Translations under genes and position numbers: made by a program
Notes under the pieces: model-generated
Seen by the model: the letters and a program-made list of their open reading frames with translations, nothing else
What the model was told of the DNA's origin: nothing
Databases searched by the model: none
In this document: one piece after another, positions 2,580 through 26,717 of the stretch
Position numbering within the stretch: position 1 is the first letter of the stretch
How the letters are laid out: every line of letters begins with the position of its first letter
Source of the DNA: Flavobacterium dauae
GTDB taxonomy: Bacteria > Bacteroidota > Bacteroidia > Flavobacteriales > Flavobacteriaceae
Assembly: GCF_004151275.2 (NCBI RefSeq)
Contig: NZ_CP130821.1
Location: forward strand, 2,880,829-2,944,828
DNA length: 64,000 bases
Reading direction: 5' to 3'

Positions 2580-2590
2580 CCGTTAGCGAG
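2580..2590 (+). repeat. Half of a cassette-type palindrome core (CCGTTAGCGAG)
   Basis: The bases CCGTTAGCGAG stand just before the DUF4180 gene and match the right-hand core CCGTTAGCGG of the palindrome at 5601-5734. The following SUMF1 gene is closed by the left-hand core CCGCTA at 3681. The pair would bound a DUF4180-SUMF1 unit. Only the right end is recognisable here, so the call is tentative. Confidence 0.35.
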
Positions 2591-2620
2591 CATTTAAAAA
2601 AACATACGCCAGAGATTGAA

Positions 2621-2983
2621 ATGGAAATAAACACACACGAGATAAATAATATAAAGATTGCTGAACTTTCATCAGAACAAATCCTTATAAACAACATAGA
2701 TGATGGACTGAATTTATTAGGAAACGTTTACTATCAAGGATTCGATAAAGTTGTCATTCATCAAAAAAATATTACTCCAGACTTTTTTGAACTCAAAAAT
2801 CGAATGGCGGGAGAAATCCTTCAAAAATTTTCAACTTATCGTGTTCAATTGGCTATTGTGGGGGATTTTTCGACATTCAACAGCAAGAGCCTAAAAGATT
2901 TCATATATGAAAGCAATAAGGAAAACCAAATTAGCTTTGTTTCATCAACGAATGAAGCATTTACAAAATTATCAGGGAAATGA
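2621..2983 (+). CDS. DUF4180 domain protein
   Basis: About 120 residues if started at the ATG of MEINTHEINNIKIAEL. The frame is open further up to an ATG at 2534, but that extra part reads through the palindrome-like sequence at 2580 and lacks family similarity, so 2621 is preferred. The body follows the DUF4180 pattern: LLGNVYYQGFDKVVIHQKNI, then MAGEILQKFSTYRVQLAIVG and SLKDFIYESNK, similar in layout to small STAS/SpoIIAA-like folds. The function is unknown. It overlaps the next gene by 4 bases (ATGA), so the two are translationally coupled. Confidence 0.75.
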   Translation: MEINTHEINNIKIAELSSEQILINNIDDGLNLLGNVYYQGFDKVVIHQKNITPDFFELKNRMAGEILQKFSTYRVQLAIVGDFSTFNSKSLKDFIYESNKENQISFVSSTNEAFTKLSGK

Positions 2984-3672
2984 ATGTTACAAAGATAGAC
3001 ATAGAAGCAATTATTGCTGAGCAAATGATTCAAATTCCAAAAGGAACAATAGAATTACGTGATGACAGAATAAAAGAAAAATGGACAACAGAGATTAAAT
3101 CGTTTTTCATTTTAAAATATCCGGTAACACAAGATTTGTATTTAACAGTAACCAATCAAAACCCGAGTACATTTCAAGGCGGCAAGCTCCCGGTTGAAAC
3201 AGTTTCTTGGATTGATGCAGTAAGTTTTTGTAACGCTCTTTCTGAATCTTTAGGAAAAGATAAATGTTATGAAATTGATTTGGTCACTGAAATTGTAACG
3301 CTAAATTCAGAAGCAAATGGATTTCGATTGCCAACAGAAGCAGAGTGGCAATTTGCTTGCCAAGCAGGAACCAAAGACATTAGATATGGAGTATTGAGTG
3401 AAATCGCTTGGTTTAAAGAAAACTCCAATAATCACACGCAAGAAGTCGGACAAAAAATGCCTAACGATTGGGGACTGTACGATATGTTGGGAAATGTTTG
3501 GGAATGGTGTACAGATATTTATGATGAAACTGTTTACGGCTCTTATCGTGTATTCCGTGGTGGTGGATGGTGCGACCAAGAAAGAAGTGTTATGGCGACA
3601 ACTCGAAGAAGAAGTCATCCTTTCTCGTTCAAAATAGACGATTTGGGATTCAGAATTGTGAAGAATAAATAA
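2980..3672 (+). CDS. SUMF1/formylglycine-generating-enzyme-like protein
   Basis: 230 residues of the FGE-sulfatase (C-type-lectin-like) fold. Visible family motifs: FFILKYPVTQDLYLTVT, PVETVSWIDAVSFCNALSE, FRLPTEAEWQFACQAGT, WGLYDMLGNVWEWCTD and YRVFRGGGW, closing with DDLGFRIV. True sulfatase-modifying enzymes use a late cysteine pair. Here the late segment reads RGGGWCDQERSVMATTRRR, with one cysteine and no clear second one, so catalysis is doubtful and a binding role is possible. No signal peptide. It follows DUF4180 with a 4-base overlap, and its stop lies directly before the palindrome core at 3674. Confidence 0.8.
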   Translation: MNVTKIDIEAIIAEQMIQIPKGTIELRDDRIKEKWTTEIKSFFILKYPVTQDLYLTVTNQNPSTFQGGKLPVETVSWIDAVSFCNALSESLGKDKCYEIDLVTEIVTLNSEANGFRLPTEAEWQFACQAGTKDIRYGVLSEIAWFKENSNNHTQEVGQKMPNDWGLYDMLGNVWEWCTDIYDETVYGSYRVFRGGGWCDQERSVMATTRRRSHPFSFKIDDLGFRIVKNK

Positions 3673-3673
3673 A

Positions 3674-3686
3674 AAACGACCCGCTA
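3674..3686. repeat. Left core of palindrome site 2 (split by group II intron)
   Basis: The sequence AAACGACCCGCTA directly follows the SUMF1-like gene. If the intron 3687-5600 is removed it joins to ACAACGGTTTGGC at 5601, giving CCCGCTAACAACGG. That is complementary in outline to the far end of the site, CCGCAAACCGTTAGCGG at 5711-5727. It is therefore the outer arm of a palindrome of about 140 bases. Confidence 0.55.
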
Positions 3687-3731
3687 ATCGAGTAGACGGC
3701 TCCGCCAGAAACTGACGGAGTGCGCCTCTCA

Positions 3732-3767
3732 CACCACCGAGCGTACGGGTCACGTACTCGGCGGTTC
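3732..3767 (-). ncRNA. Group II intron domain V
   Basis: On the - strand the 36 bases fold as a hairpin. The lower stem pairs GAACCGCCGA with TCGGTGGTG and the upper stem pairs GTACG with CGTAC around a GTGACC loop. This is the catalytic domain V pattern of bacterial group II introns, followed by TGAGAGGCGC and the domain VI stem. The maturase stop codon lies within it at 3750-3752. Confidence 0.8.
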
Positions 3768-5045
3768 GCAAAGAGATGGGTTAAGTTGTAAATGTAATTC
3801 AGTTAAGGAAACATATCCTCTTTTCTTCAAGCGTTGTAAAGTAATGGTAGTGCCTAGAATAGGACTTTGTGCTATTGCCCAACCGCCTTTCCGTGTTCTG
3901 CTCCAAGTGTAGGCATGGTCTTGGTCTACACCTAATCGAATCAGGTTTTTCCTTTTCCTTTCGGGTTTTTTCCAATGATGCCAAATGCAATAGCGCAGTC
4001 GGTTGCGAAGCCAACCATCTAAATCTCGTAATTTGCCCAAAATACTCGTGCCTTGGAAATAGTTCAACCATCCGCGTTGCACTTCTTTTATCTTGGCAAT
4101 ACGCTCTTCAAATGTGGCTGGTGTGGTTTTTCGGGTGATTGTTTTAAGTCGTTCTTTTAGTTTCTTCCATGCTTTTTCCGATACAATGAGTTGGTATTGA
4201 TTTTTACTTCCTTTCTCGTACGTAGGTACGAATCCAAAACCCAAAATTGTGAAGTGGATTGGTTTTCTGATACCGCTCTTTTCTTCATTTATAGTTAATT
4301 TGAGTTTGTTTTTCAAAAACTTTTCAATTACCACTCTTGTTGCCTTGGCTTGATTGTGGCTTTTGCAATAAATACTAAAATCATCCGCATAACGTACAAA
4401 TTTGTGTCCTCTTCGAGTCATTTCCTTATCCAATTGATGTAGTAAAATGTTCGACAATAATGGACTTAAAGGGCTTCCTTGCGGAACGCCTTTTCTTCTC
4501 TTTCGTAGATTTCCGTTGATTTTAATAGGTGCTCTGAGCCATTTGCGTATGAGTTGCATGGTAGCTTTGCATTTCACTTTTTGATAGATTAAATTCAGTA
4601 ATAAACAGTGGTCAACTTCATCAAAGAAGTTTTTCAGGTCAATATCCACAATGTGGTTTAATCCTGAATGGATGTAATCCCGAGATTGTCCAACGGCTTG
4701 TCGGGCATTCTTGTGAGGTCTAAATCCATAGCTGTAATTACTAAATTCGGGCTCAAAAAGTGGTGCAATAGTTTGTGCTAAGGCTTGTTGCAACACACGT
4801 TCTGTAGTAGTGGGAACACCCAATAATCGAGTTTTCCCATTCCCTTTCGGAATTTCAATACCTAAAATGGGTTGTACTTGGTAGTTGCCTTGTTTGATTG
4901 CTTCAATCAGTTGTAGTTTCTTTTCAGAAAACACCTTGCGGAGCTCTCTTATAGAAACACCATCAATACCCGCACTGCCTTTATTGGCAATCACGTGTTC
5001 CAATGCTCTTTGAAGATTAAACGGATGTACTACTCTTGTTATCAT
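3750..5045 (-). CDS. ltrA: Group II intron reverse transcriptase/maturase
   Basis: 431 residues, intact. It makes the intron RNP and copies intron RNA into DNA at the target. Reverse transcriptase motifs: NKGSAGIDGVS near 21-31, SYGFRP near 105-110, GVPQGSPLSPLLSN at 186-199 and catalytic YADD at 219-222. The maturase X domain shows RGWLNYFQGTS near 324-334 and LDGWLRNRLR near 342-351. The C-terminus (SRTRKGGWAIAQS) is the short tail seen in endonuclease-less intron proteins, and no HNH motif follows. The last codons overlap domain V of the intron RNA. No frameshift is seen, so the intron may be active. Confidence 0.93.
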   Translation of the reverse strand: MITRVVHPFNLQRALEHVIANKGSAGIDGVSIRELRKVFSEKKLQLIEAIKQGNYQVQPILGIEIPKGNGKTRLLGVPTTTERVLQQALAQTIAPLFEPEFSNYSYGFRPHKNARQAVGQSRDYIHSGLNHIVDIDLKNFFDEVDHCLLLNLIYQKVKCKATMQLIRKWLRAPIKINGNLRKRRKGVPQGSPLSPLLSNILLHQLDKEMTRRGHKFVRYADDFSIYCKSHNQAKATRVVIEKFLKNKLKLTINEEKSGIRKPIHFTILGFGFVPTYEKGSKNQYQLIVSEKAWKKLKERLKTITRKTTPATFEERIAKIKEVQRGWLNYFQGTSILGKLRDLDGWLRNRLRYCIWHHWKKPERKRKNLIRLGVDQDHAYTWSRTRKGGWAIAQSPILGTTITLQRLKKRGYVSLTELHLQLNPSLCEPPST

Positions 5046-5600
5046 TTTAGTTGTTTTTAACCTGTTTTCGTTAAGTAGGGCTACTATGTGTTCCGTTACC
5101 TATTGAAAACCTTTTTACGTTCAGTCCTTCCTTGTTTGTGAGACCTATGCGGTATCTATTCGCACCTCGTTTGCCCTCAAGTACTATGACCTCTGCTGAC
5201 TTCTTGGCTTGATTAACTCGTAACCACCAAGACCTCCCCTGGTAAATGCTTTTTCCTTCCGTCTATCGCCGGTACATCTACATAACAATAATCTGATTTA
5301 ATAGCATGTTCAGAACACTGTTTTGGACTTCGTATTGCTGTGGATACTCATCCTTATTGCTATGCCTCTTATGTACTTTCTGTTCGTCGGTACAGACTTT
5401 TGCAGTCCTGCTTCCTTCAGTGCATACCTCACGATAAACCACCTTGCAGCTTGCTAACGATTCGGGGTTTCAATCCGCTCGTAAGGGACTTGCACCCTCT
5501 GGAAAAATAACACCCCGAAAACTTGGTTCGTAAAACTAAATTTGTATTTTTGAACTATTTGAAAAGCTTTCGGGGTGTGTCCTGCATATGCAGGGCACAC

Positions 5601-5734
5601 ACAACGGTTTGGCAAAAGTGGCGGTTCAGTGCTTCGTATGACAGTTTTTCGTAAATTTGAAGTGTGTGCTTCGTATGAACATTTGTGGTTAAATCGCCAC
5701 CTTCGCCAAGCCGCAAACCGTTAGCGGTAATGCA
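5601..5734. repeat. Main part of palindrome site 2, cassette-type (attC-like)
   Basis: The left arm ACAACGGTTTGGCAAAAGTG and GGCGGTT is mirrored by AATCGCCACC, CGCCAAGCCGCAAACC and GTTAGCGG on the right. Between them lie near-repeats GCTTCGTATGACA and GCTTCGTATGAACA. The right core runs GTTAGCGGTAATGCA (5720-5734), directly upstream of the DUF4375 gene. The other end of that gene unit is TGCACTACCGCTAAC at 7048, which is complementary to it with one mismatch. Confidence 0.6.
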
Positions 5735-5753
5735 ATCATACGACCGTCCCAAA

Positions 5754-7043
5754 ATGAAACGAATTTTAGCAATAGCCATATTTACAATGAGTATTTTTAA
5801 TTTATTTGGACAAAACAAAGCAGAAAATGACCCTTATTGGGAATTTGATAAATCAAAACATTTCAAACCAAAACTAAATATTGGAGATTTTTTTAAGCTT
5901 ACTGATTTTGATTTTGGTTGGTTTGTACTTGAACCAATTTCAGAGTTCATTCAAGACGAAAAAGGCGAACTTACTAAAGGAAACACTTTATCCTATGGAC
6001 AAAAAGCTCTTTATTATTGGTGGTATGTTGATGCTCAAGTTACAAATGGTGGTTTTACACAATTCTACTATAATGGTTATGGAAAATATGTCCCAACAAT
6101 AATTAAAAGTCTGAAATACATTGGAGATGATAAAATGGCTGAACTGGTTAACAGGTCATACGAACTTTATTTAAAAGAGAATAAAAAGATTAAGGACGCA
6201 AGAAAAGGTGGATTAGAAGCATTTAGCAATCTATACAAAGAAATCAAAGACTTTGACGAATTGGATGATGAATATTACAATCTCAATGAACAAACAATGA
6301 AAAAAGTTGAGAAATATATTCGCGAAAATCCAAATGAATTCTGTACTAATGAAAATAACGAAGAATTTGATTTGACAATTTCGGGAGACTTAAAAACTTA
6401 CTATTCAAATAATAATATAAAAGAAATAACTCCACTTTCAAATGGAAAAGTCAATGGAATTTTTAAAAGCTTTTATGAAAATGGAAATCCAAAAGATGAA
6501 ATCAATTATATAGATGGAGAAGCTACGGGAGAAAGAGTTGAATATTATGAAAATGGAAATAAAAAGTTATCTATATCAAAATCAGATAAACCAAAAGGAC
6601 TTTTACATTCAGAATTTTACGACAATGGAAATTTAAGATCAACTCAAATTTATATATCAAAATATGATAGAGATGGAAAGTGGATACAATACTTTTCAAG
6701 CGGACAAATGAAGAGCGAGACTGAATTTATCAATAAGGAATTTTTCGTGCAAAATTGTTGGAAAGAAGATGGCACTCAGATTCTAAAAGATGGTACAGGT
6801 TTGTACATAACTGAAAACACTTATTGGGAAGGCTACACTCAAAGAAATGAACAAGAATATTTAAACTACAAAAGACACGGAAAACAATACACATACAACA
6901 ACAATAAACTTTCCTTATATCAAGAAATGTTTGAAGGAAAAGAAAACGGACTAACAAAATCATTTGACGAAAATGGAAATGTTACGGAAGAAACCGTTTA
7001 TGAAAATGGAAAAGAAATATCAAGAAAAAAATTAAAACAATAG
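5754..7043 (+). CDS. Secreted DUF4375/MORN-repeat protein
   Basis: About 429 residues from the ATG of MKRILAIAIFTMSIFNLFGQ, which is a signal peptide; an earlier in-frame ATG at 5685 would add palindrome-encoded sequence and is rejected. Residues about 60-190 resemble DUF4375: ALYYWWYVDAQVTNGGFTQF, YYNGYGKYVPTIIKSL, then an acidic helix ending RENPNEFC. The C-terminal half carries MORN/YwqK-type repeats (SFYENGNPKDEINY, EYYENGNKKL, FYDNGNLRST, KSFDENGNVTEETVYENGKE). Such repeats occur in bacterial immunity/antitoxin-like proteins, but no toxin neighbour is visible. The gene forms a unit bounded by complementary ends (5720 and 7048). Confidence 0.75.
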   Translation: MKRILAIAIFTMSIFNLFGQNKAENDPYWEFDKSKHFKPKLNIGDFFKLTDFDFGWFVLEPISEFIQDEKGELTKGNTLSYGQKALYYWWYVDAQVTNGGFTQFYYNGYGKYVPTIIKSLKYIGDDKMAELVNRSYELYLKENKKIKDARKGGLEAFSNLYKEIKDFDELDDEYYNLNEQTMKKVEKYIRENPNEFCTNENNEEFDLTISGDLKTYYSNNNIKEITPLSNGKVNGIFKSFYENGNPKDEINYIDGEATGERVEYYENGNKKLSISKSDKPKGLLHSEFYDNGNLRSTQIYISKYDRDGKWIQYFSSGQMKSETEFINKEFFVQNCWKEDGTQILKDGTGLYITENTYWEGYTQRNEQEYLNYKRHGKQYTYNNNKLSLYQEMFEGKENGLTKSFDENGNVTEETVYENGKEISRKKLKQ

Positions 7044-7047
7044 CAAA

Positions 7048-7072
7048 TGCACTACCGCTAACACGGGTAACT
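7048..7072. repeat. Left core of palindrome site 3 (split by IS1182 element)
   Basis: TGCACTACCGCTAAC at 7048-7062 directly follows the DUF4375/MORN gene. It is complementary, with one mismatch, to GTTAGCGGTAATGCA at the start of the same gene unit (5720). The IS begins 10 bases later, and the rest of the palindrome continues at 8775. Confidence 0.55.
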
Positions 7073-7115
7073 GTTGCACAACTCCAATTTTAAGGATATA
7101 AAGGTAAAATAACAC

Positions 7116-7160
7116 AAAAACCAACCACTTTTAAAGAGATTTTAGAGAGGTTGGTTTTTT
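7116..7160 (-). terminator. Terminator of the IS1182 transposase
   Basis: AAAAACCAACC at 7116 pairs with GGTTGGTTTTT at 7149, and T runs lie on both sides. It follows the transposase stop (7194) on the - strand and would also stop + strand transcription leaving the DUF4375 gene. Confidence 0.7.
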
Positions 7161-7193
7161 AGTTTCACTACTAAATTCTAAAATTTGCATTGC

Positions 7194-8732
7194 TTAAAAT
7201 GAAGTATTTGATGTTGTATTAGATAAATTTATAAAAAACAAGTTCTTTCCTTGATATAAGAACAAAACTTGGGCTAAAGCTTTGGGAATTTTAAGAATAA
7301 AACGCAGGTATTTCTTCAAGTTGTACGATAAACTTGACATCAATACATGTTTGTTTGCCTGCGCCATTCCCCGACTGTTGATACGCTTCATGTTAAAAAA
7401 GTTAATCAGCGTACCTAAAACGGGTTCTACTGTTGCACTTCTACGCTTTACCAACCTGCGATGATACGCTTTATTTTGGGTGAGTTTTTCGTGCATTTTA
7501 TCGTACAAAGGTTTATGAATGCTTTCTTCCAGTTTTTTAAACTTGGTTACTTTACCACAACAACTTGCTCGTAACGGACATTGTCCACAGGCTTTTTCAC
7601 TGCTTCGGTAACTTTTCTTTTCGTAGCCTTTGCTGTCTTTTGATGTTTTTTTATAAGGTAAAAAAGCTTTGTTTCCGCCTTCTTGAATACATTCGTATCG
7701 GTTTTCTTCTTTATTAAAAATAAAGCCTTCGCGGTTAGGTTTGTATTGTCCAAAATTGGGGATCCAAGCGTTTAGATTATGGTCTTCACAATATTGCAAA
7801 CTTGTACCGCTGCTGTAACCTGCATCGGCTATCACTTCATTGATTTGAATATCATTTTGAGCCAAGTTGGCTATTGTCTGATCCATAATGTCGCTAAAGA
7901 TTGCCGAGTCTTTACTCCCTGCTGTGCTCTCACAAGCTCCTGTAATCACGTGGTGTTTATCGTCTACTGCTAACTGTCCTGCATAGTTCAGTTGGCGTGG
8001 CTTACCAGGTTTGGTCGATATTTTCGCATCAGGATCGGTAGATGAATAATGGGTGTGATTGCTTAAAAATTTAGGACGAATTTCTTCGCCATCTTCATCA
8101 ATTTGAACGGTCTTTCTATGGCCTGGCATGTCTTTAAATGCTTCGGTTTTCCACGCATGATGTTGTTCTACTTCTTTTTTCTTTTGAGTGCTAACTTGGT
8201 ACTCAGAGTTCGCTTTCAATTCTTCTGCATAAGTTTGTACATCATCGATAATTTCTTTTTCCACCAAACTATCCATACTCGCGTTGGCTTTGATAAAAGC
8301 GCTGTCTACACATTGACGTTTGCCTCGAACCATATCTTTGTGTACGCACAAACCTAATATCATTTGAAAAAGCTGCAAGAAAACTTCTTCGCCAAAAAGT
8401 GCGCGCGTTCGGCTTATCGTCGAATGCCAAGGCAAATCTTCATTTAAATCGTAACCTAAAAACAAGCGAACATCTAAACAATTACTGCAATATCGAATCA
8501 AGGCTCTGTCGCTATTGATGTTGTTTAAATAGCCAACCAATAAAATCTTGAAAAACACCACGGGATCAATGCTTTCTTGACCCTGGGTACCGTAATAGTT
8601 GCGAGTAGATTTATACAGAAAATGTAAATCGAGCTCTTGATTTACGCGGCGATAAAAGTTATCGACTGGAACTAACCGATCGAGGCTTAGTTCATAGAAA
8701 AGTTGTGGGGTGAAATCTTTACGTCCTTGCAT
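7194..8732 (-). CDS. IS1182-family transposase
   Basis: 512 residues, full length. N-terminal DUF772-type domain: VPVDNFYRRVNQEL, DPVVFFKILLVGYL, LPWHSTISRTR. Then come the DDE parts: CVDSAFIKANAS (first D), QLAVDDKHHVITG, EVIADAGYSSG (second D) and RSATVEPVLGTLINFF (E). A cysteine cluster, ACGQCPLRASCCGK, lies between the last two, as in IS1182 members. The reading frame is unbroken, so the element may still be mobile. It lies inside perfect terminal repeats. Confidence 0.93.
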   Translation of the reverse strand: MQGRKDFTPQLFYELSLDRLVPVDNFYRRVNQELDLHFLYKSTRNYYGTQGQESIDPVVFFKILLVGYLNNINSDRALIRYCSNCLDVRLFLGYDLNEDLPWHSTISRTRALFGEEVFLQLFQMILGLCVHKDMVRGKRQCVDSAFIKANASMDSLVEKEIIDDVQTYAEELKANSEYQVSTQKKKEVEQHHAWKTEAFKDMPGHRKTVQIDEDGEEIRPKFLSNHTHYSSTDPDAKISTKPGKPRQLNYAGQLAVDDKHHVITGACESTAGSKDSAIFSDIMDQTIANLAQNDIQINEVIADAGYSSGTSLQYCEDHNLNAWIPNFGQYKPNREGFIFNKEENRYECIQEGGNKAFLPYKKTSKDSKGYEKKSYRSSEKACGQCPLRASCCGKVTKFKKLEESIHKPLYDKMHEKLTQNKAYHRRLVKRRSATVEPVLGTLINFFNMKRINSRGMAQANKHVLMSSLSYNLKKYLRFILKIPKALAQVLFLYQGKNLFFINLSNTTSNTSF

Positions 8733-8774
8733 ACAACAAGATACGAAATTTTAATTATATTTGAGTTGTGCAAC

Positions 8775-8970
8775 AAGCACAAAGGTTTGGCGCAATGGCG
8801 GGTTAAAGCTAAAATTAAAGTTTTGGTTTTCTATTCCGCAAAAAGCCAATTGTATTGACTTTTTTCTTAAATTTATTCAATTAATTGGCTTTTTGCTTAA
8901 GTTGGTTTTTAGTTCAAAGTTTAGGCTTTGAATTCCGCCACTGACGCCAAGCTGCAAACCGTTGTGCGAT
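8775..8970. repeat. Main part of palindrome site 3, cassette-type
   Basis: A nearly 200-base imperfect palindrome. The outer arm CACAAAGGTTTGGCGC and TGGCGGGTT is mirrored by CCGCCACTGACGCCAAG and GCAAACCGTTGTGCG. The inner arm GCAAAAAGCCAATT is mirrored by AATTGGCTTTTTGC around TTAAATTTATTCAATT. The inner loop recurs almost unchanged at 48045-48100, showing a dispersed family. The right core GTTGTGCGAT (8961-8970) is complementary to ATCGCACAAC at 9767, the end of the following gene unit. Confidence 0.65.
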
Positions 8971-8991
8971 ATTTTGAAAACAAAAGAAAAT

Positions 8992-9022
8992 TTTGGTATT
9001 TTAATTGAAATTGATAACTTTG
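8992..9022 (+). promoter_or_regulatory. Bacteroidota-type promoter of the toxin-antitoxin unit
   Basis: TTTG at 8992-8995 and TAACTTTG at 9015-9022 are spaced by 19 bases, matching the TTTG-N19-TAnnTTTG promoter consensus of Bacteroidota. The -7 element ends 21 bases before the ATG of the antitoxin candidate. Confidence 0.65.
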
Positions 9023-9043
9023 TATAATTAAAAACAAAAGAAA

Positions 9044-9208
9044 ATGGCAAAACCAATTAAAATAACACCAGTATTAAGAGGTCGAGATGCTGTCAATTTT
9101 CTTTCAAAGATGAGAGTAAATAAGCGTCAAAATTCAAATTCTACTTCAAAATTAATTGAAGTTAGGAAAGATGCTGCTATATTCAAATCGTTGCTTAAAA
9201 AAGCTTAA
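9044..9208 (+). CDS. Small putative antitoxin of the GNAT pair
   Basis: A 54-residue protein, MAKPIKITPVLRGRDAVNFL and onward, ending AAIFKSLLKKA. It is basic, with a short N-terminal strand-like segment and a predicted C-terminal helix. No family was recognised with certainty. Its stop lies 3 bases before the GTG start of a GNAT gene. A small gene directly before a GNAT gene, under its own promoter, is the layout of acetyltransferase toxin-antitoxin modules (TacAT, AtaRT type). The antitoxin role is therefore inferred from position and size only. Confidence 0.6.
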   Translation: MAKPIKITPVLRGRDAVNFLSKMRVNKRQNSNSTSKLIEVRKDAAIFKSLLKKA

Positions 9209-9211
9209 TTC

Positions 9212-9760
9212 GTGTCAGAAGAAGAATTATCGCAACTTTCCTTAATTTTACTAGATGAAGCTCACACAATTAAACCTTTTGATTGTGAAGATATTGATTT
9301 GAATGAATTTTTATTTGAAAAAGCAAAACTCTATAAACAAGAATTTTTAGCCACTACATTTATCTTAGAAAACGAGGAACAAACTGTTGCCTACTATAGT
9401 ATATTTAACGATAGTTTAAAAGTGGAAGAAGAGGGTTTTGCAAGCAAAAGTGCTTTTAACAGATTTCTTAGAGATTTAGTAAGTCATCCAAAACGACACT
9501 TAAAATCATTTCCCGCTCTTAAAATAGGGAGATTAGGTATAGATAAAAATTTTAAAGGAAAAGGATTAGGAAAACTAATTGTTAATAACATAATAAACGA
9601 CACTTTAGAATTAAACGAAAAGCAAGCGTGTAAACTAATTACTGTAGACGCATACAATCAATCTTTACATTTTTATGAAAAGTTAAATTTCGAATATTTA
9701 ACTGAAAATGATAAAGATGAAGAAACAAGACAAATGTATCTTGATTTAACATCATTATAA
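9212..9760 (+). CDS. GNAT acetyltransferase, TacT/AtaT-like toxin candidate
   Basis: 182 residues from a GTG start 3 bases after the small upstream gene. GNAT features: strand TTFILENEEQTVAYYSIF, acetyl-CoA loop LGIDKNFKGKGLGKLIVNNI (R/Q-x-x-G-x-G/A type), and the C-terminal YNQSLHFYEKLNFEYL. TacT/AtaT toxins acetylate aminoacyl-tRNA and share this long N-terminal strand region and an NQSLHFYEKLGF-like ending. The tight pairing with a small gene supports a toxin-antitoxin module. Alternatively it is an ordinary acetyltransferase. The gene ends 6 bases before the palindrome core ATCGCACAAC. Confidence 0.75.
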   Translation: MSEEELSQLSLILLDEAHTIKPFDCEDIDLNEFLFEKAKLYKQEFLATTFILENEEQTVAYYSIFNDSLKVEEEGFASKSAFNRFLRDLVSHPKRHLKSFPALKIGRLGIDKNFKGKGLGKLIVNNIINDTLELNEKQACKLITVDAYNQSLHFYEKLNFEYLTENDKDEETRQMYLDLTSL

Positions 9761-9905
9761 AAAAACATCGCACAACATGTAATTTGCAAAATTGCGGGTT
9801 TGAGGTTGAATTAAAGTTTTAAAATAAATATCGCAAAAGGCAATTAATTGAATATTTTGTTTAAATTTATCCAATTAGTTGCCTTTTGCTTTAGTTGGTT
9901 TTATA
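9761..9905. repeat. Palindrome site 4, cassette-type, right arm degenerate
   Basis: It begins with ATCGCACAAC (9767-9776), complementary to the start of the GNAT unit at 8961. It continues TTGCAAAATTGCGGGTTTG, then the inner stem GCAAAAGGCAATTAATTG mirrored by CAATTAGTTGCCTTTTGC around TTAAATTTATC. The inner stem matches sites 3 and 47950. No clear right-hand GTTAGCG-like core follows, so the run of units seems to end here. Confidence 0.55.
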
Positions 9906-10625
9906 ATTAAACATTTCGGTTTATAATTTCTATTGTTCATTTTTACATCCAAGAATTATTTTACGGCTTGGAAGCTGTGAATCCCCGATTTATGACTAAA
10001 AGAACCAAAAGGCTTTTCTTTTTTTGTCTTGCTGCATCATTAAAACGATCGACTACGTTTTATAAGCTAAATCATAAAAAAGTATTCATTCTTTGTTATT
10101 TTATAATAATGTATTCATAACTCAAGTAAAGCGACTGAACGGAGTTAATCTTAGATTTCGCTACGTTCCCCGATTAGTTTACGCTTGTTTCAACAATTTA
10201 ATCCCGAAAATATTGGGATTGGTTGTTTGCTTTGCCCTAATAGTACTTAAATAACTATGTTATATTTAATATGGGGATTCCGTATAAAGTCCGTTGACAA
10301 CAGGCTTCTTAATTTTAACACATAACCTAACCAATACAGGACCGACCAAAATACTTAACCCAAATATTGGTCGAGTAAAAAAAATTTTATCGACCAACCG
10401 CTGATGTATAAAGGGATTGTTAAAAAATATAAAAAATTAGTTAAAAAAAAGTTTAACAATTATTTGTTTGCTTTTTACATTTTTTTAATTTTACAATAAG
10501 CAACCTAAATAATAAACATAATAAGCATAGTTTTTACTAAAATATTGATAAAGCATTCGCTTTTTCAGTTACCGGACTACTCCTGTAGTCTGACATAAAC
10601 TATTGCCAAAACTTTAATTTAGCTT
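9906..10625. other. Non-coding stretch upstream of the Rhs locus
   Basis: No gene is seen in about 700 bases. It holds short hairpins (AATCCC/GGGATT near 10200, GACCAA/TTGGTC near 10350, GACTAC/GTAGTC near 10575). A segment at 9943-9985, TTTTTACATCCAAG with GCTTGGAAGCTGTGAA, recurs at about 33153-33203. A GCTTTTTCAGTTACC motif at about 10562 recurs in the leader of the cold-shock operon. The promoter for the downstream locus should lie here but is not obvious. Confidence 0.5.
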
Positions 10626-12378: not shown

Positions 12379-15300
12379 ATGAACGGATCAGTCAATCCCT
12401 TAAAATCCGGTATGCGGGTTTTATACTATACCGCACTGTTTGGCATGTTCTTCCAGTTGTTTGCCTATCCGCTTTATGCGGCAGTGAGCTATTTTCCTTA
12501 TGGTGTACGTTCCAATTACTACATCCCTTTTATCAGACCCGACCAATTCGAAGCTTCTGCGACTCCTTATCACGAAGAGGATACGGAGACGGCACAAACA
12601 ACACCTGCGAAGGTTTGGGAATCTTCCCATACGGAGGGAATCCGGGAAAATACCACAGAAGAAACCTTTGAAATTTATTCTTCGGATAAAACAGGGGTCA
12701 TCGGTTACGACAACCAAAGCAAGAGCGACGACCCTTCCGACAATATTTTCCATTTTTCAATCAATAAAAAACAGCTTGCCGGAAAAGACCTTGTTTTAAG
12801 CTATGAGGTGTATGGTATCGAGAATGCTTCCGGGATTGCCCGCAGCATCAACGAGCATACGGCAACAGGCGGTTTTTACATACAAAGGAATGCTTCGTGG
12901 CAAACCGTAAAGGAAACAGTGGTTGCAGGCCAGTTAAAAAACGGCGACAACCATTTGTTGTTTACCGCTTTTGAAACCGTTGGATCGGATTATAAAATCC
13001 GCAACGTAAAATTAACCGCAGCCACGGCTAAAGAAACTCCTTCGGTATCTTTTGCAGACGGAAACCATTTGTACGTGAAAAACGGCAAAGGGTATGTAAA
13101 AGGAACGGTTGACGAAGCTGCTGCACAGCTTTTTATCAACGGTAAAGAAATACCCGTAAGAAACCATGAATTTGAAACCGTACTTGACCATGTTTCCAAT
13201 ATGGAATCACTGGATGTACGCGTAGTAAAGTCAGGGAATACCGTTTTCCGGCAACAACTGCCTGTAATTTTAAAGGAAATTACAGAAACGGTAACCTATA
13301 GGGGTGCCGGACAAATGATTCCGGTACGTCAGTCAGAAAACGGGAGCTACGGTTTCGCCCTTGCCGATGTGGACCTGAACATCACAAAGGAAATCTATGG
13401 GGGAGCCGACCGCATTACGGTTCAGAAGCTACGTGCCATCGATGCGGCTCCGGTTGGAACCAACATCGTCAATGTAACGGCAGGTGCTGCCGCCTACCGG
13501 TTCTTGCCCGATGGTGCAATCTTTAAAGACAATGCCCAATTAACCATAAAATTTGATGATAAACTACTCCCAAAGGGATACAATGCCGGCGATGTAAAGA
13601 TCCTTTACTTTGATATGGAGCAAAGACGCTGGCTGGCTGTGGCAACCGATACCATTTTAACGGCAGAAAACAAGGTAGTGGGACTTACCAACCACTTTAC
13701 CGACTATATCGCAGGAATCATACAAGCACCCGAGTCACCTGAAACAAGTGCTTTTACGCCGACGTCTATTTCCGACATCCAGGTAGCAAACCCTACGGCA
13801 AATATCGTACAGATACAGCCACCGACAGCCAACCAGAAAGGCGATGGTACACTGGATTTCCCCATTACCGTTCCGGCAGGGCGTAACGGCTTGCAACCTA
13901 ATTTATCCGTTTCCTATAACAACAACGGCAGCAGCGGCATCACAGGTTACGGCTGGGACATTCCTATTCCGTATATCTCGGTAGATACCAAATTCGGTGT
14001 GCCGAAGTACGATCTGCAAAAAGAAACCGAAAGTTATCTGTTTAACGGTGAAGAGCTGATGCTGGTTAACGGCTCAAACCTTTACCTGCCACACAGGCAG
14101 TCAAACGCCATTAACAGGGTAAGCGGGACGGCGACCTTTGTACCTAAAGTGGAAGGCTCGTTTTCAAAAATCCAACGGATAGGGAGCAGTCCGTCAACCT
14201 ATACCTGGGTGGTGTGGGACAAGTCCGGCACGAAGTATTATTATGGACAAATAGCTGCCCACAGGTTGAGTTCTGGGACTAACCCCAAAAATATAGCGAA
14301 ATGGTACCTTTCTAAAGTTGAAGATAAAAACAAAAATTACATCCGGTATAATTATCTACCGAAAACCTACGGCTCGAGTACCGGCAATTTAAACGGGGGT
14401 GTCGAAATACTTCCTCGGAGTATTGAGTATACCCTGCATCCCGATGTGGATATAAGCGCCAATACAGATAATCTTTATTATACCGTAAATTTCAATTATG
14501 CCAGCAGCAAGCGTACGGATGCACATTTCAACTACCGTTACGGTTTTAAGGAAGTCAATGCGTCAAAACTGGACTATATCAAGGTAACCTGCGATAAAAT
14601 GATTCCAATAGATGTGCGTGATGCCCCGGACATTTATTGTGATTACGACGTGGAATACCGTTTTAATTACGGTACCGGTCGGTTTGGTAAAACGCTTTTA
14701 AGCAGCATTACTACGCGGAATATCCAAAAGGACGACAGCGGAAATATAACCGCAACAGAAGACTATACCCATACGTTTGATTATTACAACGACGTTCCGA
14801 GTAATTCGATGTTCGGTGCGGCGAAAACCATCAGCGTGGAAGACGACATTGCCGACGAGAAACATTCGGTCATCAGCTCTACCAAAGAAAGTACCAGCTC
14901 CACAGAGTTCAATATCGGAGCCGGAATTACTCTTGCCTCGAATCCCCCGGCATGGTGGCCGTTCAGCTATGGCGGTACCATCAATTTCAATTTTCCTTCG
15001 GGCGTTTCCACATCCAGCTCTCCTACGATGCTGCTTTTGGATATCGACGGTGACGGATTGGATGACAAGGTGGTGAAGGTCGGCAACGAGATCAAATACC
15101 ACAAAAACCTTGGGGGTATAGCGTTCAGCAGCCAGCTGTACAAGGCATACAGCATCGGCGATCTGGGACTTTCTGAAAGCAATACCAAAACCGATCCCGA
15201 GATGTCGCTGAGCGTCATTTTGGGAAGCTACAGCGCGTCCAAATCGCAGACCAACGGAAGGGCACGTAGCTTCTTTACCGATGTGAACAACGACGGGCTG

Positions 15301-18300
15301 GTAGATTTTGTCAAAGACCGCATTGTGTATTTCAACCGGATTGACCCCAACTCGGACCGTCCCAATTTTACCGACAACAGTGCGCTGACACCCAACCGGA
15401 TCTTTAAGGAAGGTGCTCCCGATCCTAATGTATCCGCACCGCTGCCCGACCTTACGGTGGGCAACGACCTGATGGACGTGGTAAAGGTGTGGGTGGCTCC
15501 AAGGGAAGGCGATGTGGACATCAGCGGTTCCATTTCCAAAAACTTCATCGCATCGCATAACGGGATCCGGTATTCCGTGGAGAAAAGCAGCAGAACAGGT
15601 TCAGGATTCCCTTATTGGGATCCCAATAAACCTATAGTCATAAATAATCCGAAAATTTCGATTCAACCGTGGAATCCGTCTAACCCTGTCATACTCGGAC
15701 CGATACCCTTCAATCCCTACAGTAAAAGCTACCTGATACAGCCCACCTTACTGGTAACGGCAACGCAGTCCACTACTGCATCTACGCACGTGGAAGAAGG
15801 CGACCGCATCTACTTCAGGGTAAACAGCAGTCAGATTCCCGAAGATAAGGTAGGTGTGGACTGGGATCCACAAGTTGAATACACTTCTTCAAGTGGTGGA
15901 CTTGCTTACCGTTCGAAATACAGTGAATCCTTCCTCTATGGAGACGTGCTTCAGCAGCCGATGACCATTGCCGAACCGGGAAATTACAGAATTGAATGGG
16001 GAGCTATGAGTCCGGGGCTTTCAGAAGACGTAACTATTAAAGTACGTGCATACAAGATTTCAGCAACCCCGGGGACAATAGGTAACAAACTTGGAGTTTC
16101 CGGAAGCGCCATAGAGATTTACGACAAAGTATTAAAAGCAAATTCAAGCCTGCCGGGTGTTACACTGCCGATTAGCGGATCGGGTATTGATACCAATAAT
16201 CCCGACACCTATATTTATGTGGAAGTGGAAGCAGGTGCCAAATTCAGCCTGGAATGGAAAGATTTTGACACGGCATTTATTCCAAAGCTCAGAAATACTT
16301 TGACAAACACAAGCAAACACATCGTACCTTTTTACGATATGCGTGAAGAGGCACTTACCTATTATCCGCCAATTAAATTCCCGTTTCCGTGGCCGATAAA
16401 GATCAAGCACGATTTTCAGCTGGCACAATGCCAGAACTTTGACGGGGCATGCGAGCAAAGATTCGTGTATATGAAGGCGCGTTATGAAAACGGTGAACCG
16501 CTGCGGACCGCAAATGGAAGGGAAGCCAAGTTCCGCTACCGGATCAACCGTCAGGGAATCATTGACGAAGTACGCCAGTTTGAAGGAGAGAACTTTGACC
16601 ATTCTCCGGTAATTGGTGATCCTTTTTCACAAATACAGGTGCAGCCAAACAGGGAACTGTTTGTAGAATATACTGCGGACGATTACGGTGTGGCATCTAT
16701 TTTAAACCATTACCAGAACAACAACGACGATTTAATCAGTACCACGGCGATGGGCTTCGCTTCGGGAGGTGCTTCTTCTCCGATAGCGGGAACTTCACCA
16801 AGCACAGGAACTTCACCGGCAACCGGTGCCGCCCCGATGGGTTTTACACTCCCTTCGGGATTGGTGCGTGCAAACATCAAGACCGTAAAACCCGAGGAAC
16901 TGGGAATGGGTACGCTGTACAAAGACTGGGGACAGTTTGCCTATAAAGGAGCCGCACCGGACGAGAACTTTACTCCGATCGACGAACGGTACGCAAGCCG
17001 TCTGGCAATTATGGGGGTATCCAAAACCCCTACGCAAGCAGAAATTGATAATGGAAAAGAGTTAATGGAACTGGATCCGAAAGACATGGATTATGATGAA
17101 GACAAGGGTACCATTACTGCCGGGGGAAATCCGATTCCCGTAACTCCGGGGCAGATGGAAGCCATACGGCACTTCACCATGCTGCGTCCCGACCGGGCGA
17201 TTGAGGCATGGAGTGCACACGAGCGATTGTATGTGCAAGAAGAAGAAATGAGCCCGTACCTGCGTTATTACAACGAAAACTACAGTCCCATGCTACCGAT
17301 TCCGGCACCTACGGGTATCGGGCAATATGGAGCGTTTTCCATCGTGAAGGAAAACACCTCGGAATCCAAATCCAAAGGATGGAGTGTCGGCTACTACGGA
17401 ATCAATATCGGTACCACCTCCAGCAGTGCGGTGTCACGCCAATTGAACGATTTCAGGGACGTCAACGGAGATGGTTACCCGGATATACTGGGTGACAAGA
17501 TACAGCTGACCTCTTACCGCGGCGGGCTGACTTCCACGATACTTAATAAAAACCTGTTGGGTACCACTACCAGTGCCGGTGAGGGAACGACTGCCGGCGT
17601 GTCTACCGCACATATCACAGCTCTTGCCGATCCAAGCGGAAGCTTCAGCAGAATAAAAGTCGGAGATAGCAAATCGTTCTATTCCGGAAGCTTTGGCGGA
17701 GGAGCCCAAGACTATCAAACCTCTACGCTTCCTGAAAGCGTTCTGGTAGATTTGAACGGCGATGGACTGCCGGATTTGGTAAAAACAAATAATCAGGTAG
17801 AATTTAACAATGCAGGAACTTTCGTAGCCTCTACCTGGACCGGTTATTCGGATCCTTCCTTGAGCAAAACCTCTTCGAAAACTACTTCGCTGTCCGTTTC
17901 AGCAGGAGAAAATTTTAACGGTAAAGGCTCATCCAACCTGGATCTTGCCATTGGTTACAGCGGATCGCAGGGTGTTACCCATACCGAAAAAGACTTTGTT
18001 GATTTTAACGGCGACGGACTACCCGATTATATCAGCGGCGGTCAGATCCTTTTTAATACGGGTACAGCACACTCCGGAGGCGGATCGGCATCTCTGCCAC
18101 GCAGGTCGGAATCTACTACCTATGCACACGGGTTTAACGTAAACCTTTCGATTTTAATACCAATTTCCCTTACTCCCCTGCCGTTTATCGTTAAAGTAGG
18201 CGGCGGTGGCGGAAAAAGCTGGGGCACCAACTACAACGAAGACAATGTAAGCCTCCGCGATTTTGACGGCGACGGCTATGTGGACATCGTGGAATCGGCA

Positions 18301-21300
18301 TCGGAAACGGAGGTAAAAGTCCAATTTTCGAAAATCGGGCGTACCAACATGCTTAAAAAGGTAACAAATCCTACGGGATCGACCATAACAATGGATTATG
18401 CGACCAACAACATAATTACGGGCGAAGGCTTCGGACCTACCTACAAAATGCCGTTTAAAAAATGGGTACTGAGCAAGGTAACGGTCAACGACGGTTTCAG
18501 AGGGGATGGTGCCGACGAGCAGAAATTCGCCTTTGAATACCAAAACGGTTTGAAAGACCGCCGCGAACGCAAGTTCTTAGGCTTCGGTGAGGTGAAAACA
18601 CACCAGCTGAAAGAGAATGCCAACCCGGTAATTTACCGCACCGTGGTACAAAAGTACCTGCTGGACGAGATGCCGTCTTACGAAATCTACCTGCACGGCG
18701 ACCATTCTGACAGCCGCAAGTACCAATACATCGGAAATCTTTTAAAAGAAGAAAGTACGTATGACGGTACGCAGCGTCTTTTGAACAAAACAGAATACGA
18801 TTACGCTATTTATTCTGTCGGTGCAACAAACCCAACAAGTGAATTTCAGACAGAGTATCCGATAAACCCTTTCAGTTATACGGATACCAGCCGTATCCTG
18901 CCATTGGTAAAAAGCACTACCAGTACCGTACGTCATTACAACGGAACCGGTGCTTCTCCTTTCAAGGACGACATTCTGGTACAGGTGTTCAAGGAATACG
19001 ACAAATACGGCAACCTGACACGTTATTTTGACCCGTTAGACGGAAACAATGTAATAATTGGTTACCACCAACGCAATACGGCCTCCCAGTATCTGGTAAA
19101 TGTACCGTCATCACACAATGTGAACAACGGACAAAGGTACAGTACCACCGTTATGGATACACCGGGAAACATTACCGCCATTAACCGGTTTAAAAACGGG
19201 CCTACCGGCAGTGATGTGGCAACCACCAATATGGAATACAATACGTTGGGGCAGCTGACCAAAGTGATACAGTCTAAACCAAAGATGAGCTCAAACAACA
19301 GCGAACGTATGTTCTATGAATACACGTATGATGACAGCACGTTTAAACTATTTGTGACCAAAGTTACCGATGCTTACGGATTTACAAGCAGTACCACCTA
19401 TGATCATTTCGGGATGCCGTTAAAGCAAACCGACCTGAACGGTACGGAATTCGAATACACGTACGACCCGTTGCGCCGCGTTACACAGTTTAAAGGGCCG
19501 TACAATGATGAATGGACGATTAAAAACGAGTATAAAAAAGACACGGCAACCGGTTTGCGTTACGCCGTAACAAAACACAATATCACCGACGAAACAGTTG
19601 CAGGGGCAACACAGCAGGTGCTGCATACCTCGTCGTTTGCCGACGGTCTGGGACGCATCATCCAGACCAAAAAACAGCTGGCACCTGAAGACGACCCTAA
19701 CTGTACCACACCGGGCAGCGGCTACCGTTTTGCTACATCGGGCTTGCAGGTATATGACGCGTTCGGGCGTGTGGTGAAAAGCTTCCTTGGGCAGGAAGAA
19801 CTGGACTGTACCGGAAACTTTGTAAACGTATTGCAGGCATATACCCCGCTGACGCATGTTAAGGCGGAACAAACGGATATTGCTTACGACGTGCGCGACC
19901 GCGTACTGCAAAACCACGTGTACGGATTAAATGCCACCACCAAATACCAATACGGTTTTGACGACGACGGACTGGGAAACAGCCGTTCCTACGAACGGGT
20001 AACCCTTCCTGAAGGAAACCTGTCGGCTACCTACAAAGACGAAAAAGGGCGTGTACGCACTACCAAACAGACAGGCAGCAGCATGCAGCTGCTTACCCAG
20101 TACCGGTACGATATGCTGGGCCAGTTAGAGAAAGTAACCGATGCCGACGGTAAGGAAACCTTATACGAATACGACAACTTCGGTCAGAAAACAAAAACAA
20201 CCCATCCTGACAACGGTATCACAGAGTTTACCTACGATTTAACAGGCAAGCTTACCGCGAGTGCCAACCAAAACCTTGTGACACAAGGAAAAGAAATAAC
20301 CTATGCCTACAATTTCAACCAGCTGGTAAACATTGCCTATCCGTCTTTTGTTGCCAACGGACAGAATTACCCGGCATACCAGGTAAATTATCTTTACGGC
20401 GGCGTGGGGGCACCTGATTTTACCGCAGGAAGAATCAAACAGGTGACCGACCTTACGGGAAGAAAAACCTTTAAATACGGGGCATTGGGCGAAGTGCTGG
20501 AAGATACCCGCCAGCTGATCGGTGCCACCGGAACCATGGAATTTACCACAGGATACCGCTACGACAGCTGGGGACGCATTATGGAAATGACCTACCCCGA
20601 CGGAGAGCACCTGACCTACGGATACAACAGTGCGGGGCAGCTGAAAAGTATTTACAGTGACACGGAACAACAATCGTATTTGAGAAACGTTACCTACACC
20701 TTCTTTGAGCAGCCGGCAGAAATTACCTACGGCAACGATGTGGTAACCAAAAACGAATACGACATTACGCAGCGCGTGCGTGCCATGCAGCTGGACCGTC
20801 CGGACACCACCACCTTTATGCGCAACCTGTACACGTACGACCGCAACCAGAACATTACCAATATCATGAACAAGTTCTCGCAGCACAACGTGTTACAAAT
20901 GGGCGGTACCTTTACTAAGGATTACACATACGACGGGTTTAACAGGTTAAGCCATGCCGAGGGTAATTGGGAAGGATACCAGGAAACCCATGAATATACA
21001 CTGGATATGCAGTACAACAACACCCATGGTATTGTAGAAAAAAATCAAACGCATAATACGGTAAACCCTGTATTTTCGGGTGCAACCGAAAATGCCTATC
21101 AGGCTAAATATAATTATAATAATACGGCACATCCGCATGCGGTAAACAGCATTGCCTACACGGGTATTGGCGGTACGCAGAATGCAACGGCTAACTTTAC
21201 CTACGATGCCAACGGAAACATGACGCGTTACCAAAGCAGTTTCGGAAGTTTTAACGACCGTAAGATGATCTGGGACCAGCAAAACCGTTTACTGGCGGTG

Positions 21301-23478: not shown

Positions 23479-23485
23479 AATTTAT

Positions 23486-23965
23486 ATGATAAAAATAGAT
23501 TCAACAAATTTTGATGATCAATTTAAAGTACTCCTTGAAAATAAAAAAGGAAAAAATGTTATTACAGGAAGATTTGATATCGAATCTATTGGTTTAATAA
23601 ACAAAATAGATTTTATAATTGAATTCTTTTCATTAAATCAAATCATAGGTTCAACTATCAAAATTCTTTTTTGGGAAAAAGATAGTTTTTTGATAAATTT
23701 AATGGCTTCAATGAATGTTACAAACTATTGGTTAGCTACTTCTTATAAAAATGAAGAAATACCAGGTACTCTTTATATCGATATGAGTGTTTTTGATGAG
23801 TCAGTTTTCAGACAATTATTGATAAATCATTTTAATTTCGAAATGGCGGAAAACCCCTCTTTGAATATGAGGGTTCAAATATGCTTAACTAAAGAAAAAA
23901 AAGTAACATTACTTGATATATACGATGATAGAGGATTTGACATTTATATGTTAGAGAAAGAATAA
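23486..23965 (+). CDS. Immunity protein for the Rhs tip (probable)
   Basis: 159 residues from ATG at 23486, 7 bases after the rhs stop; an in-frame ATG at 23450 would overlap the rhs end and is less likely. Cytoplasmic, acidic, no signal peptide. The end reads LLDIYDDRGFDIYML, which resembles the end of the DUF3885-type proteins found beside toxin tips. Base composition is more AT-rich than the rhs core, as is the tip itself, fitting co-transfer of tip and immunity gene. The role is inferred from position and size. Confidence 0.7.
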   Translation: MIKIDSTNFDDQFKVLLENKKGKNVITGRFDIESIGLINKIDFIIEFFSLNQIIGSTIKILFWEKDSFLINLMASMNVTNYWLATSYKNEEIPGTLYIDMSVFDESVFRQLLINHFNFEMAENPSLNMRVQICLTKEKKVTLLDIYDDRGFDIYMLEKE

Positions 23966-24007
23966 CATGATTGGAACGTAGTGTATCCCACGCTGGCGCG
24001 AGCATCT

Positions 24008-24197
24008 GGTAATGTTTCAGAATTAGTGATGCCCTTAAAAAGTGCATTAAATCGCTGAAAAACAATACATTTTGTAAATTTTAATCATTAAAAACAGACA
24101 GGCAATTGCCTGTCTGTTGTATTTTTACGGCATTAAACCTAAAATAATGAATGCCAACCAAACCTTGTGTTACAAAGTTAGTGACAAGATGTTGTGC
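24008..24197 (+). mobile_element. Left-end remnant of the IS1-family element
   Basis: GGTAATGTTTCAGAATTAGTGA at 24008 and the following bases match the left end of the IS1-family copy at 27184, including a 26-base perfect palindrome (24093-24118) and the first codons of the transposase (ATGAATGCCAACC). The match breaks at about 24194, where GTTGTGCCCATTTTGCC fuses IS sequence to the rhs segment that starts at 21966 in the full gene. The fusion lies in a short shared stretch (TGTGCC..TTTTGC), so it looks like a microhomology junction. Confidence 0.75.
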
Positions 24198-25692: not shown

Positions 25693-25694
25693 AT

Positions 25695-26420: not shown

Positions 26421-26431
26421 CGTTTATAACA

Positions 26432-26465
26432 GGTAATGTTACAGATTTAGTGATACAGTAAAAAA
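26432..26465 (+). mobile_element. Short IS1-family left-end remnant
   Basis: GGTAATGTTACAGATTTAG and the next bases are identical to the left end at 27184. The match ends after about 30 bases (TGATACAGTAAAAAAG). It lies between the immunity gene and a third Rhs scrap. Confidence 0.65.
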
Positions 26466-26500
26466 GTAAAGCTATGCAAGTGCGGGGCTTTTAAAACCAG

Positions 26501-26580
26501 ATGGTTGAAAGTACGATGACACCGTACCAATATGTTACTAATAACCCGATTATGAGAATTGAACCCGATGGCGCGGATTT
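26501..26580 (+). pseudogene. Scrap of an Rhs core end (third module)
   Basis: The frame from ATG 26501 reads VESTMTPYQYVTNNPIMRIE and PDGADLQ, matching the end of the Rhs core (EQTMTPYQYVHNNPVNLIDPTGM). No Rhs sequence precedes it and no tip of useful length follows. It is a remnant of another displaced module. Confidence 0.7.
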
Positions 26581-26687
26581 GCAATCCGTGCCTATAAACC
26601 ACAACAGCCTCTTTACAAACGTATTGAGGCTGTATTATTATAAAACACTTTACTGTTGTTATACATTTATTAGTTTGTTGTAAAAGC

Positions 26688-26717
26688 AAAACGCCAGGCT
26701 AGTAGCTTGGCGTTTTT
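26688..26717. terminator. Terminator-like hairpin joined to Rhs fragment 4
   Basis: AACGCCAGGCT at 26690 pairs with AGCTTGGCGTT at 26704 and runs into TTTTTT. The T run merges with TTTGAATGGTACCAG of the next Rhs fragment, so the fragment junction lies in the terminator tail. Confidence 0.6.

Follow-up and report, generated by a model that had tools for sequence, protein, structure and literature searches.

In integrons built around an IntI integrase, the gene for this tyrosine recombinase adjoins a directional series of compact gene cassettes, each followed by a hairpin site (attC) running from AAC to GTT; such integrons have an attI entry point, heads and tails that are complementary within each cassette over a 7-nt box, and integrase-less derivatives (clusters of attC sites lacking integron-integrases, or CALIN). 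In reverse-oriented integrons, which occur in Treponema and some Planctomycetes, the integrase gene is transcribed toward the cassettes and the enzyme is again IntI. Group IIC-attC introns and insertion sequence (IS) elements that target attC exist as well. The extra helix of IntI contacts an extrahelical base, according to a passage of PMC3053210, and part of PMC8138268 describes the IntI insertion as essential for integron function. IntegronFinder 2.0, in the portion of PMC9024848 considered here, gave one complete integron in Bacteroidetes, that of Salinibacter ruber, beside others in Chlorobi and Ignavibacteriae. Here, we analyzed a 64,000-nt stretch of the Flavobacterium dauae genome (NZ_CP130821.1, positions 2,880,829 to 2,944,828; "the window"), in which a cluster of gene units lies at 2.6 to 9.8 kb. 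These units are very probably mobile cassettes of an integron-like system of Bacteroidota, a divergent lineage whose integrase and recombination site are both distinct. As far as sequence tells, this system would work like an integron, while it falls outside the classical family by its lack of the IntI insertion and of the GTTRRRY core. No description of such a system was found in searches of an open-access library without preprints; it was possibly overlooked because its integrase and site differ from those of textbook integrons.

An earlier note on the window had reported complementary ends in two neighboring units, and this complementarity proves stronger than was claimed, extending over 15 nt in each. 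In unit 1, the head GTTAGCGGTAATGCA (position 5720) pairs with the tail TGCACTACCGCTAAC (ending at 7062) with one mismatch; in unit 2, the same 15 positions are joined, with the same lone mismatch, between the head GTTGTGCGATATTTT (8961) and the tail that ends at 9776. The ends of unit 2, described as perfectly complementary, are so over the first 10 nt, the longer pairing containing the mismatch. Both stems thus consist of GTT and seven further pairs, an A/G mismatch at position 8 after GTT, and four more pairs, after which the stem ends. This is not a chance pattern, since none of 399,760 random GTT/AAC pairs from the window reached 7/7 plus 4/4, and among all real GTT..AAC pairs 200 to 4000 nt apart, only three did: units 1 and 2 and the pair 61826/63738. 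The latter joins two palindromes of the GTTTCACGTGGAAC type, which we presume from their motif to be parS sites, and position 8 is paired there. When up to 3 mismatches are allowed, the window contains two copies of the motif GCCAAGCYGCAAACCGTT (0.03 expected).

The palindromes between units belong to a widespread family. Their right-arm pattern was found at 10 places in the host genome (≤3 mismatches) and, of 299 genomes sampled from the family, in 17, host included (≤2 mismatches); the matches listed came from contigs of many Bacteroidota and from some Chlorobi, Ignavibacteria, and Kapaibacterium records. Such matches are partly due to chance, a left arm (by a loose rule) accompanying 72 of the 208 places with ≤1 mismatch in our loci. 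We used a covariance model, R1, built from 75 sites (74 of the 106 distinct pattern-found sites plus window site 1), which were picked by hand, chiefly for a length near 146 nt. The sites are uniform in length (mostly 146 to 147 nt, counting 11 nt on each side), in line with the long sites described earlier. The left arm, xxxGTTTGGC, and the right arm, GCCAAGCxxx, are complementary to each other, with covariation at the variable positions. Across the 75 sites, 93.5% of cells are paired and 13 of 22 pairs show double changes; the sites have a covariation score of 0.315, which falls to 0.092 after shuffling and to at most 0.064 with the partners slid. As in integrons, the site is an imperfect hairpin with unpaired bases that is kept by fold more than by sequence. 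Unlike in IntI integrons, the inner stem is paired throughout and a 5-nt AAACC loop lies on one side: these bases are unpaired on the right strand, between the inner stem and GTT, usually with a lone A opposite. The circle-type junction of cassette c1 of locus L205 folds better than shuffled sequences (z of -3.65 for the top and -4.54 for the bottom strand). The search of relatives proposed earlier recovered the family in other genomes: with R1 at E ≤ 1e-4, sites occur in 177 of 395 genomes of a Bacteroidota sample and in 97 of its 170 genera (per-genome figures of 7 stand for at least 7). A contig recorded under a Chloroflexi metagenome assembly also carries a strong site (L061:737-885, 103.9 bits), which reflects either transfer or wrong binning.

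Complementarity of the kind seen in the window is general. We defined 159 units as the stretches between consecutive same-strand R1 sites in our loci, using the best 150 of 151 and the best 150 of 183 model matches, a few of which are one palindrome read on both strands. Head positions 1 to 7 match the unit's own tail at rates of 0.58 to 0.90 (0.25 to 0.64 in other pairs), position 8 at 0.03, and positions 9 to 12 at 0.71 to 0.74 (0.30 to 0.49 in other pairs), and from position 13 onward, matching is at background. Position 8 of the head is A in 157 units. The effect does not stem from the model, since R1 leaves the head and tail columns unpaired. The unit specificity noted earlier also holds in this wider set: 128 of the 159 units reach at least 6/7 over positions 1 to 7, compared with 3.3% of random pairs. 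Likewise, true head-tail pairs score 5.9/8 against 2.9 when shuffled, while a tail and the next unit's head at the same site score 3.0 and a head and the next unit's tail 3.1, both at or near background. In these 128 units, the longest open reading frame (ORF) follows the direction of the site in 116 and opposes it in 8, with none of 60 amino acids (aa) in 4; the medians are 42 nt from GTT to the start codon and 17 nt from the stop to AAC, with 91% coding. Tandem units of one orientation, each with one compact gene followed by its 3' site, have what is, judging by this layout, cassette anatomy. The departure from the GTTRRRY core observed before also stands, as that consensus fits 21 of the 159 heads while GTTRNNNG[CT][ACT]A fits 100; the core of these sites can be written GTTR-NNN-G-Y-M-A.

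As the earlier note stated, no integrase was noticed in the window, and searching the host genome with the integron-integrase family places recombinase matches elsewhere. Among other recombinases, this search returned, below the family cut-off, a tyrosine recombinase of 360 aa at G000:C1:2790172-2791251, about 90 kb before the window start. The tyrosine recombinase whose existence had been proposed is thus found, adjoining an array of 10 R1 matches on the opposite strand; the integron-specific insertion expected of it is absent. From the integrase outward, the array holds a GNAT cassette, an ankyrin cassette, two units (the second with a DinB-like gene), and a second copy of the GNAT cassette; next come a MerT/HMA gene together with an ArsR-type regulator, then a gene for cation efflux, and further units. 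In cassettes 1 to 8, head and tail pair over 9 to 10 nt with zero mismatches (by reading) and in cassette 9 with one, and the following unit fails to pair. The two GNAT cassettes are identical (676 nt, 100%) from the G of GTT to the last T of the next GTT, one copy lying behind ..GTGTATAAACAA and the other behind a site.

None of the 12 NCBIfam matches of this integrase exceeded its cut-off; the nearest were the XerA-type NF040815 (191.2 bits, cut-off 220) and the integron integrase TIGR02249 (171.6 bits, cut-off 265). Among proteins of solved structure, archaeal Xer proteins and IntI4 match it best, and the alignment with IntI4 (2a3v) breaks at the IntI extra segment. For alignment and tree building, we picked by hand 24 array-linked integrases, 8 short relatives, the host integrase, 10 IntI, and 2 Xer proteins. 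The IntI insertion (alpha-I2/patch III) is present in all 10 IntI and absent from the host integrase, the 24 array-linked proteins, and the 8 short relatives. In the tree, the ten IntI cluster together (support of 100), apart from the array-linked integrases, which are not one group against the short relatives. Of 8000 candidates scored, 5934 proteins are relatives at E ≤ 1e-30; those named among the 120 listed are called XerD or tyrosine-type recombinase. The model of an 86% identical relative (predicted local distance difference test [pLDDT] of 87.1, predicted template modeling score [pTM] of 0.60) has, before the core-binding domain, a confident N-terminal domain of about 70 to 88 residues with a strand-strand-helix-strand-strand order. 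All 50 matches listed in a fold search are tyrosine recombinases. The integrase resembles Xer-type recombinases such as archaeal XerA and XerC/D in its best family match, and differs from them in the extra N-terminal domain and the association with arrays. Some of these integrases may fall within the integron-like subgroup treated in PMC8138268. A search for close relatives in viral contigs confirmed none. Several short relatives (about 270 to 330 aa, without the N-terminal domain; L281, L286, L288, L291, L301, and L306) keep an LFEGQ motif and have 0 to 2 sites nearby.

Integrase and sites occur together. Relatives of the integrase (E ≤ 1e-55) are present in 69 of the 395 genomes, and R1 sites occur in 64 of these, compared with 113 of the 326 others (Fisher p of 4e-20, uncorrected for kinship). 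In the host genus, all 13 integrase-positive genomes have at least 6 scored sites, compared with 2 of 11 negative ones. We examined 62 neighborhoods (60 from matches in the 69 positive genomes, L122, and the host locus), with 150 sites: 126 downstream on the integrase strand, 23 upstream and divergent (10 of them in the host genome), and 1 other. Downstream sites on the integrase strand, present in 40 of the 62 and unlike the arrangement of IntI integrons, are reminiscent of reverse-oriented integrons, from which the divergent host integrase differs. In 29 of these 40 loci, a head matching the first tail at ≥9/11 lies 60 to 368 nt after the integrase stop; with tails dealt out among loci in 200 rounds, the mean was 1.4 and the maximum 5. 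The sequences converge there on an attI-like junction, ..ATATAAACRA/GTTR, often with a dyad upstream (32 loci, namely 31 of the 40 plus the host locus; the 9 omitted have a far or unmatched head). The same element precedes the first cassette of the host array despite the divergent integrase. As in integrons, the integrase gene thus adjoins an array with an attI-like entry point.

Cassettes appear to have moved with borders at this point. We picked by hand six pairs of related platforms (L271 being used twice); in all six, similarity is 0.70 to 0.90 over the last 50 nt before GTT, 0.38 to 0.64 over the next 50 nt, and about 0.1 to 0.5 thereafter. One cassette, starting at G, is the first to follow the integrase in L122 and L284, and in L128 and L058 it comes after a site. 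In the window, cassette 0 matches a cassette at L206:11636 (91.8% identity over 656 nt), with similarity from CCGTT onward. Of the proposal that units recur in different contexts with breaks between G and TT, the recurrence and the border at GTT stand; G and TT being present on both sides, the comparison places the break only within GTT. Genes fixed in place, boundaries off the core, or nonspecific repeats, which the earlier note had named as contrary outcomes, were not found, and its suggestion of mobilization by an integrase encoded elsewhere gains support from sequence evidence, with the biochemical step presumed. The protein of cassette 1 has, besides the host genome, one partial relative in the 149 genomes of the family searched, and sharing was therefore tested on other units. 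In L304 (6964-9392), several repeats of about 300 nt with 97 to 100% identity adjoin an integrase; they are perhaps multiplied cassettes.

Several observations weigh against this interpretation. Recombination itself is presumed from the patterns above. The host integrase diverges from its own array, unlike the two nearest relatives retrieved (50% identity), whose arrays lie downstream as in 40 neighborhoods overall; 22 of the 62 neighborhoods have no downstream site. The head and tail of cassette 0 pair poorly, with partial complementarity, and 31 of the 159 units fall below 6/7. The integrase tree was built by a quick method, its branches are long, and its deeper order is unsure. The genomes are related, and the association test is not independent for each of them. 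Sites occur in 113 genomes that have no relative at E ≤ 1e-55, and 5 genomes show the reverse. When 18 genomes were searched again, G414, G418, and G556 (6, ≥7, and ≥7 sites) and G620 (1 site) had no relative even at 1e-25, and G572 (≥7 sites) had only a weak one. In G659, one of the two site-rich but integrase-negative genomes of the host genus, an integrase fragment with an internal stop adjoins 11 R1 matches on the array strand (L346, G659:C2:145000-164900; two further matches are the same palindromes on the other strand); this locus is a decayed platform. Site-bearing genomes without a relative imply that some arrays use another enzyme or have lost theirs.

We weighed three other readings and rejected them on the evidence that follows. 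The sites could be ordinary attC sites of classical IntI integrons transferred within Bacteroidota, next to an incidental recombinase. Their overall plan (AAC..GTT, hairpin, arrays) is indeed that of integrons, and IntI is common in the phylum, with matches at E ≤ 1e-55 in 107 of the 395 genomes, 105 of them above the family cut-off. However, no such match occurs in the sampled genomes of the host genus, family, or order, and the lone IntI genome of the host class has no R1 site at E ≤ 1e-4. R1 sites are also less frequent with IntI (34 of 107 genomes) than without (143 of 288); R1 found nothing in ten IntI neighborhoods (133.8 kb), whereas in three genomes with both enzymes (G589, G393, and G571), 2, 4, and 4 sites lie beside the new integrase and none beside IntI. 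A crude home-made search for GTTRRRY sites beside the ten IntI, on which we base no claim, gave matches in 3 of the 10 loci and, with each locus shuffled once, no match. Given also the rarity of GTTRRRY heads, a classical origin is improbable.

Palindromic, intergenic, and present in several copies per genome, the sites could also pass for transcription terminators or dispersed hairpins, like repetitive extragenic palindromes (REP) or miniature inverted-repeat transposable elements (MITE), with the cassettes immobile. The pairing, however, joins the ends of a gene unit rather than those of one site and varies by unit; in most integrase neighborhoods that contain sites, these lie on the same strand and on the same side of the integrase; and the duplication and exchange of units have their borders at GTT. 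We give this reading next to no credence. A different recombinase, or homologous recombination between sites that are very similar within a subtype, could instead move the cassettes, the recombinase studied here being a by-stander. The genomes with at least 6 sites and no relative at E ≤ 1e-25 would fit this, as would the short relatives with few or no sites nearby (except L298, with five upstream and divergent). Yet attI, whose sequence does not resemble the sites, has a sharp border at GTT, the first head follows the integrase stop at a near-constant distance, and homologous recombination would not maintain a cassette-specific stem with a fixed mismatch; a by-stander role is accordingly hard to credit.

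If the units are cassettes of this integrase, it would cut at the GTT of attI and, on a circular cassette, at that of a site folded from a single strand, inserting and excising cassettes as IntI does; binding of the circle as a folded single strand is proposed by analogy with IntI. In the circle, the head and tail of a cassette are adjacent, and their specific 15-nt stem, unlike the IntI box in length and in its fixed mismatch at position 8, would close the base of the hairpin, whereas in the array it cannot form. Since complementarity is kept together with the mismatch, selection on the circular, folded form is indicated. Because the integrase lacks the extra helix and the site has a different pattern of unpaired bases, recognition should differ from that by IntI and could involve other features, e.g., the one-sided AAACC loop and the fixed mismatch. 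More speculatively, and on balance we rather doubt it, integrons may have arisen twice, a Xer-like Bacteroidota recombinase without the IntI helix and with its own N-terminal domain having independently taken up folded cassette hairpins under a different recognition code (the 15-nt stem with its mismatch and the one-sided loop). Signs of cassette exchange tied to integrases without the IntI insertion make the reading of a folded single-stranded site testable in a second system. The integron census would change too, as this family is found in nearly half of the sampled Bacteroidota genomes, against the one complete integron named in the portion of PMC9024848 cited above, and mobile genes in large numbers may have escaped notice.

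Table. Features of the cassette cluster in the window.
Feature	Position	Strand	Description
Cassette 0	2582..3686	+	Head GTTAGCGAGC; tail ..CGACCCGCTA, truncated by intron; DUF4180 and FGE-sulfatase genes (Pfam)
DUF4180 gene (cassette 0)	2534-2983 (as listed)		Later true start probable
FGE-sulfatase domain gene (cassette 0)	2980-3672		Pfam
Group II intron	3687..5600	-	Reverse transcriptase/maturase (3750-5045); boundaries inferred from flanks
attC-like site 1	5601..5722	+	Left arm CGGTTTGGC.., right arm ..GCCAAGCCGCAAACC; core GTT 5720-5722
Cassette 1	5720..7062	+	DMP19-like and MORN_2 protein, 429 aa; complementary head/tail
IS1182-family element	7072..8775	-	Interrupts left arm of site 2; putative boundaries from terminal repeats
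attC-like site 2	7060..8963	+	Split by IS; AAC 7060-7062, remainder 8776-8963, core GTT 8961-8963
Cassette 2	8961..9776	+	54-aa ORF (9044-9208) and GNAT acetyltransferase (9212-9760); complementary head/tail
attC-like site 3, decayed	9774..9930	+	Left arm and central hairpin retained; right arm and core unrecognizable

The cluster of the window (see the table) is a small CALIN, partly decayed by an intron, an IS element, and the degradation of site 3. Site 1, itself among the R1 training sites, matches at 5588-5733 (108 bits, E of 7e-24) and site 2 at 8768-8974 (53.3 bits, E of 3.5e-10); in or near the window, R1 finds these two sites in cassette context, a weak match (25 bits) at 47963, and another site 5 kb before the window. 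Site 3 shares direct repeats D4 and D8 with site 2, but its right arm is degraded and the R1 search at E ≤ 0.01 gave no match. In cassette 1, the first in-unit ATG is at 5754 and the stop at 7043. The small ORF directly before the acetyltransferase gene of cassette 2, whose product had no match in Pfam, perhaps forms with it an acetyltransferase-type toxin-antitoxin pair (9044-9760).

Both inserted elements are reminiscent of group IIC-attC introns and attC-targeting IS elements, as they lie at fixed points of the sites. The intron (Rfam RF02001 and RF01998, the only two matches in the first 12 kb of the window; maturase TIGR04416, 368.4 bits) is inserted in the R'' box of site 1, TTGT/TAGC, on the bottom strand, its 3' junction being compared with that in L271. 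Group II introns in two genomes (window 3687-5600 and L271:1-418) stop at the same site point, with TAGC after the intron end, and therefore seem to target these sites. The IS1182-family element (NF033551, 294.9 bits) is 99.2% identical to the copy in L205. Judged by their junctions, copies lie at one left-arm position three times in the host genome (window 7072-8775, L205:49-1780, and L206:9784-11543) and once in L148, which suggests site-directed insertion; the same junction in L134 is known from the sequence of the element end alone. Farther along the window, at 12379-27213, a 3699-aa ORF and the genes following it contain DNA repeats that are 87 to 89% identical (21966-22724, 24195-24953, and 26705-27183).

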